From: Spirochaetales bacterium
GTDB taxonomy: Bacteria; Spirochaetota; Leptospiria; Leptospirales; Leptonemataceae
Assembly (NCBI GenBank): GCA_015075425.1
Contig: JABTUL010000002.1
Location: forward strand, 558,001-622,000
DNA length: 64,000 nt
Direction: 5' to 3'
Translations under genes and position numbers: made by a program
Notes under the pieces: generated by a model
Seen by the model: only the letters and a program-made list of their open reading frames with translations
Database searches by the model: none
What the model was told of the DNA's origin: nothing
Shown: piece by piece, positions 7,548 to 11,783 of the stretch
How the letters are laid out: the number at the start of each line of letters is the position of its first letter
Numbering within the stretch: position 1 is the first letter of the stretch

Positions 7548-8393
7548 CTAAAATCGGACTCCAAAGGAAATGTTCCACTCAAAGACACCGGCGGTAAAAG
7601 CTGCCTTCTCACGGATAAAGCCGATTACAGTTGGCCCTGTTGGCGTATAGATCTCCCTGGTGGCCAGCGCCGCATCAAAGGCATTGAGCAGGGCCAGGCC
7701 ATCATTCTTGAGATAATAATAGTTTGCGGAGAAATCGTTTAAGTGCCCCTGGAAAGGGCCGGCATAAGCATAGGTGAATCGCCATGTCGAACGCAAAAAG
7801 AGATGCTCTTTAAGACTTTGAGAAACTCCCGTTTCCAGCCGGGTGATCAGACCAAACCGACCGGTATGAAAAGCATGCATCTGGTTGGCATTAAAAGCAG
7901 ATAGCCGGTAGCCATCCGCATACCAGTAAGAAAGGGGAATGAAACCATAGCCAAAGCCTGCTTCCCAGGATCTTCCGCGACGCAGGTACTCTACATGGTG
8001 ATAGGTAAAAAGAAAATAGGATAAATCATAGCGAAATCTGAGCTGGAGCATAACTCCATCGCTACGCACTTCGCGAACATTGATATGGGGGGCACGGAAA
8101 ACACCGCCGGTCAGACCAAAGTAGTTCGTTTCTCCCAGAGGACCGGCAAAACGAAAAAATCCCTCAACGCTGTCCAGGCGATAAAACCCATCGCTCTCTA
8201 CCCAGTGGTAAAGGTCCGCCCGTAAACTGGAGTGAAATCTGCGGTAACCATCGTCCAGAGCGTCCGGCACGCGACTGCCATGGTTGTAAGAAAGACCAAA
8301 ATGGAATTCATCGGCCCGAAGAACACCCGGAAGGGCCACCACTGACAAAAGAAAAGTGACAGAAAAAGCGCAAGATACCGCTCTGGTCTTCAT
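7548..8393 (-). CDS. Predicted outer-membrane beta-barrel protein
   Basis: About 281 aa. An N-terminal signal (MKTRAVSCAFSVTFLLSVVA) is followed by ADEFHFGLSYNHGS and many alternating aromatic strands such as YDLSYFLFTYHHVEYL and GYGFIPLSYWYADGYRL. The protein ends in FEWNISFGVRF, a C-terminal Phe typical of barrels inserted by BamA. No specific family is recognised. The start is uncertain: further in-frame ATGs lie at 8411 and 8426, and AAGGAG directly touches the ATG chosen. It is divergent from the psd fusion gene with essentially no space between them. Confidence 0.6.
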   Translation of the reverse strand: MKTRAVSCAFSVTFLLSVVALPGVLRADEFHFGLSYNHGSRVPDALDDGYRRFHSSLRADLYHWVESDGFYRLDSVEGFFRFAGPLGETNYFGLTGGVFRAPHINVREVRSDGVMLQLRFRYDLSYFLFTYHHVEYLRRGRSWEAGFGYGFIPLSYWYADGYRLSAFNANQMHAFHTGRFGLITRLETGVSQSLKEHLFLRSTWRFTYAYAGPFQGHLNDFSANYYYLKNDGLALLNAFDAALATREIYTPTGPTVIGFIREKAAFTAGVFEWNISFGVRF

Positions 8394-10485
8394 GCTCCTT
8401 GATGAAGTCATCGTTGTATTCACCATCCTTGCTGTAGCCAGCGGCGTCTACCTTTTGGTACGCTCGCGATTCCTGATTCTGCGCTACTTTCTGCTGGGCT
8501 GGAAAAGTCTGTCGGGAGCTATGGATCAAAAAAAAACCAGCCACCAGGCCAGTCAGGCAGAGGCCTTCTTTCTGGAGAGCCTGCCGGGCATCATCCCCGG
8601 AGCTATCATTGGCGCGCTGCTTGCTCGCATGGTGCAGCAAGAAGGGATGCTCCTCGTCATCTTACTCTCTGTGCCCCTGGCCATGACTTTGCGCTACAGC
8701 TTCATCACCCTTCTTCTGGCTGCCAGGCAAAGGCATCCGACTGGCAGGGCGCAGCTGCATCTGTTTTCCCCTGCCGGGCAATTGCCCTGGGTGGGCTACG
8801 TGTATCTGATCCTCTTTTTACTCTACACCGCCTGGTTTTCTGCCGTGGCTACCGTGCCCCTTTTGACCGCTGTCCTGGACCTGTCTGGCTTTCAGCTGGC
8901 TATTGTTATGAGTCTCATCTTTTTGGTCATTCCGCGTGTGTATGGCCGACTGCGCCCCCTGCTCATCTACAGCGTCATTGCCGCTTGCGGAGTTATGATT
9001 TTCGCAATTTTTTGGATTTTCTTTATAAAATCACCGGGACTTGATGCCCTGAACACACTCAAGGAAGGTCTCCTGAACGTTCGCCAGGGAAACACCAGTG
9101 CGCTACTTCTGGGACTGGGGCTCTACTGGCTATTTACAGAAATCTTACAACCATCGACAGGTGTCCATGAGACGATTCGCACGGACTACCCCTCCCGCGC
9201 CGGGCTCGCTTCCATGATGGGTCCGCTCTTTTCTGCTCTGATTGCCGTCTTCTGCTTTGCCCTGCCCGCTACATACTTCAACCGCAATTTCTTCAGCGAT
9301 CAGGGCCCGGTGGGCTTCTTACTTTTGGGAAGTCTCTTCCTTCTGGCTTTAAGTGCTTTCATTTCTCATGTGCGCAATCTATTCCGATTAACGGCCCGAC
9401 CGGCGCTCCTTTCCGGGTCCGTACAGATTCTTTTCTTTTTGCTGCTGCTATCTTTCCCCGTCCTTTTTGCCGGCACCGTGGATCTCTCAACCATACTCCT
9501 GGTAGGCGCGGCCCTGGGTGCTCTGGCCCATTTTCCTTTGCTTCTGGCTCTTCTTCTTTCCGGGTCAGAACTGCATCGGCAGAAGTTGCGTTTTCTGGAC
9601 GAAGGACATGCCCGCTATGAGATAGCACGTGATACGTATTTATTTTTGTGGACCATCCTGCCCAAGAATTTGCTCAGCCGAATTTTTGGCTGGATCGCAT
9701 TTTTGCGCTTGCCGCGATTCATCATGCTACCCCTGCTGCAAGCCTTTGCACGTGCTTATAAGATCAATGTGGATGAGGCCGAACTCGAACTCAAAGATTA
9801 TCCATCGCTCAATCAATTCTTCACCCGGGCCCTGCGTGATGGCTCGCGGGTAGTCCACCAGGCTCTGGACACCTTTGTATCACCGGTTGATGGACGCATT
9901 CTACAGCTGGGAAGCATTGATCGGGGCACGATGCTTCAGGCTAAGGGACTGCGTTACACCCTGCCGGACCTGCTGGATCATTCCGATTACACGCCCCGTT
10001 TCCTGCGCGGTAAATTCATGATCGTGTATCTCTCACCCCAGGATTACCATCGCATCCATACGCCTGCCCATGGACAGATTCTGGGATACACCTATTCTCC
10101 AGGGCGCCTTTTCATGGTAAACCAGATTGCCGTGCGCGGCATTCAGGGACTTTTCCCCAAGAATGAACGGTTGACTACCTACTTACAAACCGATTACGGA
10201 CTGATTGCCGTTGTTAAAGTAGGGGCAACCAATGTAGGTAAAATCAGTGTTACCTATGATACGATTCAAACCAACCGCTGGTTCCGGCGCACCGTCCATC
10301 ATTCCTATGAAAAAACGATTCACTACGGTCGCGGGCAGGAACTGGGTCGGTTTGAAATGGGTTCCACAGTGATTCTTCTATTTGAAGAGGGAATGGTGGA
10401 ATTTCGTCCGGATCTTAAAGCAGAGCAAAAAGTCACTTTTGGCGAAAACCTGGGCCGCTTCAAGGGCAGGAGGGGTAGAACATGA
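8392..10485 (+). CDS. psd: AGCS-transporter-like membrane domain fused to phosphatidylserine decarboxylase
   Basis: 697 aa from the ATG at 8392; a GTG at 8356 is an alternative. Residues 1 to about 400 form 9-11 membrane helices resembling the alanine/glycine:cation symporter family, with STGVHETIRTDYPSRAGL in the position of the AGCS segment after the NEAGLGS loop, although that loop is lost. From about residue 415 a phosphatidylserine decarboxylase follows. SPVDGRI and DYHRIHTP carry the Asp and His, and FEMGSTV carries the LGST-type self-cleavage site whose Ser (about 658) becomes the pyruvoyl group. It would make phosphatidylethanolamine at the inner membrane. The last four bases overlap ndh. 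The fusion is unusual, since normal Psd is about 290 aa. Confidence 0.8.
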   Translation: MLLDEVIVVFTILAVASGVYLLVRSRFLILRYFLLGWKSLSGAMDQKKTSHQASQAEAFFLESLPGIIPGAIIGALLARMVQQEGMLLVILLSVPLAMTLRYSFITLLLAARQRHPTGRAQLHLFSPAGQLPWVGYVYLILFLLYTAWFSAVATVPLLTAVLDLSGFQLAIVMSLIFLVIPRVYGRLRPLLIYSVIAACGVMIFAIFWIFFIKSPGLDALNTLKEGLLNVRQGNTSALLLGLGLYWLFTEILQPSTGVHETIRTDYPSRAGLASMMGPLFSALIAVFCFALPATYFNRNFFSDQGPVGFLLLGSLFLLALSAFISHVRNLFRLTARPALLSGSVQILFFLLLLSFPVLFAGTVDLSTILLVGAALGALAHFPLLLALLLSGSELHRQKLRFLDEGHARYEIARDTYLFLWTILPKNLLSRIFGWIAFLRLPRFIMLPLLQAFARAYKINVDEAELELKDYPSLNQFFTRALRDGSRVVHQALDTFVSPVDGRILQLGSIDRGTMLQAKGLRYTLPDLLDHSDYTPRFLRGKFMIVYLSPQDYHRIHTPAHGQILGYTYSPGRLFMVNQIAVRGIQGLFPKNERLTTYLQTDYGLIAVVKVGATNVGKISVTYDTIQTNRWFRRTVHHSYEKTIHYGRGQELGRFEMGSTVILLFEEGMVEFRPDLKAEQKVTFGENLGRFKGRRGRT

Positions 10486-11783
10486 AAGCTGAAAAAAAGC
10501 AGGTCCTCATCGCCGGGGGAGGATTTGGCGGTCTCACTGCAGCGCGTGTTCTGGGCAATCATTCCGGTTTAGAAGTCACGATCATTGACCGGCGCAATCA
10601 TCATCTTTTTCAACCATTACTCTATCAGGTGGCCATGGCTGCTCTGAGCCCCGCAGATATTGCCGTTCCCATCCGCAGCATACTGCATGGCTACAGGAAC
10701 ATCAACGTCCTTCTGGCAGAGATTGAATCAATTGATTTAAAAAATAAAAAAGTTGAAACAAATGTACGGGCTTTTTCTTACGATTATCTCATTCTGGCCT
10801 GCGGCGCCAGCCACAGCTATTTTGGCCATGATGACTGGGAGGAACTGGCGCCGGGCCTCAAGAGTCTGGAAGAAGCTACAGAAATACGGCGGCGCGTCCT
10901 CTTAGCTTTTGAGCAGGCAGAGCATGAAGAAAGCCCGGAGCGACAGCGTGAAATGCTGACCTTTATTGTCGTCGGCGGTGGACCCACAGGGGTTGAGCTT
11001 GCCGGCGCCCTGGGGGAAATGAGTCGCTATACTCTGGCACGGGACTTCCGCCATATCAATCCCGAACGCACGCGAGTGCTCCTCATTGAAGGCGGACCGC
11101 GCATCCTGCCCACATTTGATCCGGAACTGTCAGAGAAGGCGGCGCGCGGTCTGGAAAAGCTGGGCGTTACCGTGTGGACCAATGCCATGGTCTCGCGCAT
11201 GGAGCCGGGCAGTGTTACCATCGGCAGCGATGTCATCCATGCGCGGACCATCCTCTGGGCAGCCGGGGTAAAACCGTCACCCCTCAACAGCGCTCTGGGA
11301 GTGAAACTCGGACCCATCGGCCGCATCATGGTTGAAGCTGATCTGAGTATCCCGGGCTTTCCCTCCGCTTTTGCCATTGGCGATCAGGCCAACTTCAGTC
11401 ACGGCCTGCCGGGTCCGCTACCGGGAATCGCCACCTACGCCATTCAGGAAGGGCGCCATGTGGCCCGCAATCTCATCCGGGAAGCCGCTGGAAAAGAACG
11501 TTTACCTTTTGTACCCCGCGATAAGGGCATCATGGCAACCATTGGCCGCGCTTTTGCTATCGTGGAACGCGGGCGTCTCAAATTCAGCGGTTTCTTTGCC
11601 TGGCTTGCCTGGCTTATCGTTCATATTTTCTATTTAATTGGTTTTCGAAATCGGGTGGTAGTGCTCTTCCAGTGGGCCTGGTCTTACGTTACCTTCCGTC
11701 GCGGAGCACGACTCATCACCAATAGAGACTGGCGGTCCATTGGCCGGCAGAGCGATGTGTCAAAGGCTAAGGGGCGCCCATAG
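10482..11783 (+). CDS. ndh: Type II NADH:quinone dehydrogenase (NDH-2)
   Basis: 433 aa. FAD-binding VLIAGGGFGGLTAARVL at the N-terminus, NAD-binding FIVVGGGPTGVELAGALGEM near residue 160, and AIGDQA with a GIATYAIQEG helix near 300-330, where the quinone and FAD sites meet. The C-terminal 80 residues contain a hydrophobic pair (WLAWLIVHIFYLIGF) that anchors the enzyme to the membrane, as in many bacterial NDH-2 proteins. It oxidises NADH without pumping protons. ATGA overlap with the psd fusion implies coupled translation. Confidence 0.9.
   Translation: MKAEKKQVLIAGGGFGGLTAARVLGNHSGLEVTIIDRRNHHLFQPLLYQVAMAALSPADIAVPIRSILHGYRNINVLLAEIESIDLKNKKVETNVRAFSYDYLILACGASHSYFGHDDWEELAPGLKSLEEATEIRRRVLLAFEQAEHEESPERQREMLTFIVVGGGPTGVELAGALGEMSRYTLARDFRHINPERTRVLLIEGGPRILPTFDPELSEKAARGLEKLGVTVWTNAMVSRMEPGSVTIGSDVIHARTILWAAGVKPSPLNSALGVKLGPIGRIMVEADLSIPGFPSAFAIGDQANFSHGLPGPLPGIATYAIQEGRHVARNLIREAAGKERLPFVPRDKGIMATIGRAFAIVERGRLKFSGFFAWLAWLIVHIFYLIGFRNRVVVLFQWAWSYVTFRRGARLITNRDWRSIGRQSDVSKAKGRP

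Follow-up and report, generated by a model that had tools for sequence, protein, structure and literature searches.

The 64,000-nucleotide stretch of DNA analysed here, referred to throughout as the window, comes from a Spirochaetales bacterium and carries one long gene that encodes a multi-pass membrane domain and a phosphatidylserine decarboxylase (Psd) together. The initial annotation had described one uninterrupted frame joining the two parts, and the same frame of 697 codons was recovered; a GTG at 8356, also in frame, is an alternative start. A genome search showed that the fused gene is present once and is the only psd of the source genome. Its parts and the adjacent genes are listed in Table 1, in which the membrane-helix numbers are those of the predicted structure model.

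Table 1. Positions in the window of the fused psd gene, its parts and the adjacent genes.
Feature	Position	Strand	Remarks
ORF of 102 aa	7270..7578	-	no Pfam match
Divergent gene of 292 aa	7548..8426	-	signal-peptide-like start; no Pfam match
Whole fused gene	8392..10485	+	single open frame from ATG 8392; 697 aa plus stop; single copy in genome
Eroded AGCS-type membrane domain, residues 1-406	8392..9609	+	11 predicted TM helices (TM0 + 10)
Position of AGCS TM1 motif GTGN, here IPGA (residues 68-71)	8593..8604	+	alignment/profile comparison; TM1 a continuous helix in the model
Position of AGCS motif NEAGLGS, here TEI-LQPS (residues 249-255)	9136..9156	+	alignment/profile comparison
Psd N-terminal amphipathic helices, residues 407-455	9610..9756	+	model helices 407-422, 425-437, 442-455
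PF02666 phosphatidylserine decarboxylase domain, residues 473-688	9808..10455	+	E 6.8e-60
Predicted Gly657-Ser658 self-cleavage site of the GST motif	10360..10365	+	sequence; invariant in 40 relatives; cleavage inferred
NDH-2-like NAD(P)/FAD oxidoreductase	10482..11783	+	begins with ATG inside the psd stop region (overlap 4 bases)

The decarboxylase half

The C-terminal 290 residues make up a complete PsdA-type enzyme. The PF02666 domain scored 202.6 bits in the Pfam scan (cut-off 22), and TIGR00163 scored 201.9 in the NCBIfam scan (cut-off 111.75). E. coli PSD is a monotopic protein anchored by three N-terminal amphipathic helices, and its self-cleavage is driven by D90/D142-H144-S254 (PMC7952604). 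The PDB match to this enzyme began at residue 412 of the window protein, so the match includes the amphipathic helices, and the structure model placed three helices where those of the E. coli protein sit. Residues D500, D551, H553 and S658 (the G-S-T motif) aligned with the E. coli residues and were invariant across 40 fused relatives: the Asp, His and GST Ser that the initial annotation had read as intact are all in place. Cleavage at G657/S658 would yield a 40-residue alpha chain (658-697) and a beta chain bearing the membrane part, and the position of the site near the C-terminus supports the earlier expectation that the membrane part stays with the beta chain. Judged by its residues, the window protein should process itself to a pyruvoyl enzyme and decarboxylate phosphatidylserine (PS). 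Since pssA was also found in the genome, above cut-off, the route from PS to the membrane lipid phosphatidylethanolamine (PE) looks complete.

Similar to E. coli PsdA (PDB 6L06, 7CNW; PMC7952604), the window protein has the whole enzyme, the amphipathic helices, the D/D-H-S residues and the GST cleavage motif. E. coli PSD has no transmembrane domain, whereas the window Psd is preceded by a domain of 11 helices.

Occurrence and surroundings of the fusion

The initial annotation had proposed looking for the same fusion in other Leptospirales genomes, and it proved to be widespread. Searches of 48 genomes of the class with PF02666 found a Psd in 45, and in 40 of these the membrane domain and the enzyme were joined in one frame, across 23 genera and 4 families. 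Two further genomes carried the fusion in broken form, one interrupted by contig ends (G003) and the other by a frame break (G020). An unfused Psd was confined to G010 and the two genomes of family f5. A profile that left out the five most diverged N-terminal domains (N-domains) still matched them, but matched no reversed controls. When the intact fusions were used in a scan, no fusion was seen outside the class among the best 80 of at least 583 AGCS relatives; the Leptospiraceae MAG SKYG28 was the only one of these 80 aligned through the Psd part.

That adjacent genes were joined by an error of sequencing or assembly is barely conceivable. Nothing in the window points to such an error and the broken frame inside the N-domain of G020 is a feature of a relative; against it, the same open frame was present in 40 independent assemblies, which excludes assembly error. 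In G020 itself (L103:4000-6238) the split within the N-domain may be a recent mutation or a sequencing error.

Two other irregular sequences were noted. Besides a full fusion, G025 has part of another Psd at the end of a contig (C148:3-578), from either contamination or a second copy. A 618-aa frame of G054 with a Psd-like match was considered as a fusion and rejected: a phmmer search with the window Psd did not match it, and its N-terminal part for the most part did not resemble a membrane domain.

The surroundings of psd differed among families. The genes after psd were proC and thiL, recognised by sequence, in 13 genomes drawn from f3, f4 and f5 (for example at loci L071, L077, L080 and L099), and this arrangement is usual in those families. 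The unfused Psd of f5 has the same proC/thiL neighbourhood, which makes it more likely that f5 lost the membrane domain than that it never had it.

In the window, the 292-aa gene, from its annotated start, shares 35 bases with the beginning of psd. Relatives of this gene adjoin the fused psd, often upstream, in 11 genomes of the window's own family (f1) and of f2, the family that we take to comprise Leptospira and its neighbours; its product looks like an outer-membrane protein. G006 and G018 carry relatives of the 102-aa ORF close to their fused psd. The 4-base overlap of the NDH-2-like gene with the end of psd suggests that the two are probably translated together. The NDH-2-like gene was not a conserved neighbour of psd in the relatives compared.

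Psd-made PE belongs to a core membrane pathway, and the class, to which the agents of leptospirosis probably belong, appears to make it through a multi-pass fusion enzyme unlike the monotopic one of E. coli. In the literature searched, no description was found of the fusion or of Psd in these spirochetes; automated domain-architecture listings may hold the fusion. Both halves belong to known families, and what appears to be new is a PsdA enzyme bearing a pseudo-transporter membrane domain of AGCS origin.

Ancestry and erosion of the membrane half

The N-terminal 411 residues alone matched no Pfam or NCBIfam model in single-sequence scans, and a single-sequence scan of the genome contigs found no relative. 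The ancestry of the domain was therefore drawn from its relatives, from profiles and from structure. PF01235 (Na_Ala_symp) was matched by 18 of the 19 orthologues in the alignment (E 0.01 or better), with the window protein unmatched. Comparison by hhalign of the f1 alignment with ten standalone AGCS proteins gave E 3e-36, and E 6.8e-50 once f2 was added. The window protein was modelled with AlphaFold (pTM 0.68, mean pLDDT 84.7), and a Foldseek comparison of the model with the PDB gave the AgcS symporter as the top membrane hit, with a TM-score of 0.69-0.71 at 14-16% identity, ranking above other transporters such as Nramp/MntH. Profile-profile comparison and predicted fold trace the membrane part to the AGCS Na+:alanine symporters, and the resemblance to AGCS claimed in the initial annotation is upheld. 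A membrane part unrelated to transporters was rejected on the orthologue matches, the hhalign result and the AgcS fold.

To measure how far the domain has departed from its ancestors, 72 positions invariant in the ten standalone AGCS proteins were counted in every fused domain; the substrate-site residues counted are thus invariants of the AGCS family, as distinct from residues taken from a solved AgcS complex. Six fused domains (G030, G031, G035, G039, G040 and G043) kept 62-70 of the 72, with GTGN and NEAGLGS intact. Fewer were kept in f2 (34-38), in the genus Turneriella together with G047 (22-25) and in f1 (12-33). The window protein shares fold and ancestry with AgcS (PDB 6CSE) and retains 14 of the 72 invariants; it falls short of the curated PF01235 cut-off, lacks both motifs and carries a C-terminal enzyme that AgcS does not have. 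The initial annotation had reported the NEAGLGS loop as missing: the motif is indeed lost, but the loop has been eroded to TEI-LQPS and not deleted.

A further fused domain, that of G034 (L073:3807-6137), kept 51 of the 72 positions, with GVGS for GTGN; the same genome encodes a standalone AGCS as well. This looks like an intermediate case, with erosion under way.

The predicted structures differed at the same site. In the model of the intact relative G043, TM1 was broken at the motif (81-92, 95-108), as compared with a single unbroken helix at 55-81 in the window model. The intact fused relatives were 43% identical to AgcS, with a TM-score of 0.89-0.90 for the fold of the G043 model. These comparisons suggest that Na+-coupled alanine or glycine transport has been lost in the window domain, and that the fused symporter probably still transports in the few lineages with an intact domain. 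No AGCS was detectable by PF01235 in the source genome.

In a tree of AGCS domains, the standalone proteins formed one group (99/99) with every fused domain outside it, which is consistent with one fusion. Turneriella grouped with the intact domains, on a branch with full support and away from f1 and f2, and erosion must on this tree have occurred at least twice. The likeliest order, then, is a single fusion of a working symporter, followed by two or more erosions of its transport site. The Psd tree leaves the deep order of the families unsettled; deep branches were weak in both trees, which include several long rows. The living series from intact to eroded domains allows the turning of a secondary transporter into a non-transporting enzyme domain to be tested, as well as which face of it is kept.

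Selection on the eroded domain and its possible role

Within genera that have eroded domains, the dN/dS of the N-domain was 0.02 to 0.27 where it could be computed, with dS saturated in most pairs; in G026/G027, the one unsaturated eroded pair, it was 0.022. Substitution rates thus indicate that the eroded domain is under purifying selection. Conservation was scored by zone as the mean frequency of the commonest residue, the zones resting on predicted helices and the inferred AGCS topology (N-terminus out, C-terminus in). Intact AGCS domains were most conserved in the membrane core (0.71), followed by the cytosolic (0.56) and periplasmic (0.51) faces. In 20 eroded domains of f1 and f2 the cytosolic face ranked first (0.56), ahead of core (0.47) and periplasmic face (0.36). 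Residues conserved in the eroded set only were cytosolic in 11 cases, in the core in 3 and periplasmic in none (Fisher p 5e-4, an optimistic value as the sequences are related). The cytosolic-first ranking held with a second alignment and with three choices of boundary; no such shift was seen in the Turneriella set of seven closely related sequences. In the modelled topology, the cytosolic face, on which Psd lies, has replaced the membrane core as the most conserved zone of the eroded f1 and f2 domains.

We hold with moderate confidence that the former symporter, fused once in an ancestor and eroded later, has been kept as a membrane platform that docks and positions, or regulates, the cell's only Psd. 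In an ancestor of most of the class, an AGCS-type Na+:amino-acid symporter would have become the in-frame N-terminal part of a normal PsdA-type enzyme. Its ion and substrate site would later have become dispensable in most lineages and would have eroded on the Leptospira/Leptonema side, the window included, and separately in Turneriella. What is left would be an 11-helix membrane domain, still folded, whose C terminus lies in the cytosol; selection would act on its cytosolic face, most likely for docking of the Psd domain. The docked enzyme would be positioned or regulated at the membrane, the site of both PS synthesis and decarboxylation, and after self-cleavage the beta chain would keep the platform and the alpha chain would carry the pyruvoyl group. 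The fusion, the AGCS ancestry, the erosion series, the purifying selection and the shift in conservation are shown by the data; loss of transport, self-cleavage, docking and any regulatory effect on Psd are deductions from them. The presence of Psd without the domain in the f5 genomes and G010 counts against a platform, as the enzyme can evidently work without one.

The initial annotation had proposed that the domain lost transport and became an anchor, a lipid-handling module or a serine/ethanolamine-related channel. Loss of the transport motifs agrees with the first part of this. That the domain is no more than an anchor is unlikely, since Psd has retained three amphipathic membrane helices of its own and since anchoring would not explain conservation specific to one face; for the channel, no support was found. 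The same own anchor weakens another explanation, which we consider unlikely: that the domain is a historical passenger, a useless symporter retained only since expression, folding or insertion of Psd needs some membrane domain in front. The fast and uneven divergence of the N-domain and its apparent loss in f5 and G010 would fit a passenger, but the low dN/dS, the newly conserved cytosolic residues and the 11-helix fold that is still predicted would not.

It is also rather unlikely that the domain still transports something else, its site remodelled for another solute, or the domain moving lipids or feeding them to Psd (PS inwards, PE outwards or across). The AGCS fold has been kept, the N-domain is under purifying selection, and E250 of the NEAGLGS motif is retained with several glycines of TM1 and TM3. 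Yet the core and periplasmic face were the least conserved zones of the eroded set, no new conserved pocket was seen, TM1 was continuous in the window model, and f1 domains diverge strongly among themselves. Transporters that work with enzymes are known from other families; LplT belongs to the MFS family. In LplT-Aas a membrane transporter is physically coupled to a phospholipid enzyme, as one ORF in some species, and CbrA transports histidine, so that enzyme-coupled transporters can stay active (PMC11416262, PMC7096432). LplT differs from the membrane platform favoured here in being an active lysophospholipid flippase that works with an acyltransferase (PMC11416262), and both its transporter family and its lipid reaction are other than those of the window protein.

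More tentatively, the domain may be a regulatory module, a pseudo-transporter whose cytosolic face and residual cavity sense the state of the membrane or of a metabolite, or assist in PS delivery, thereby controlling how fast PE is made. If true, phospholipid composition throughout Leptospira, Leptonema and Turneriella would be under a transceptor-like form of control. Likewise, a symporter and cytosolic enzymatic domains share one chain in CbrA and other SLC5-STAC histidine kinases, whose transporter domain seems to influence the enzyme (PMC7096432). CbrA differs from the window protein in that its transporter is of the SLC5 family and remains active, and in that its output is a kinase and not lipid synthesis.
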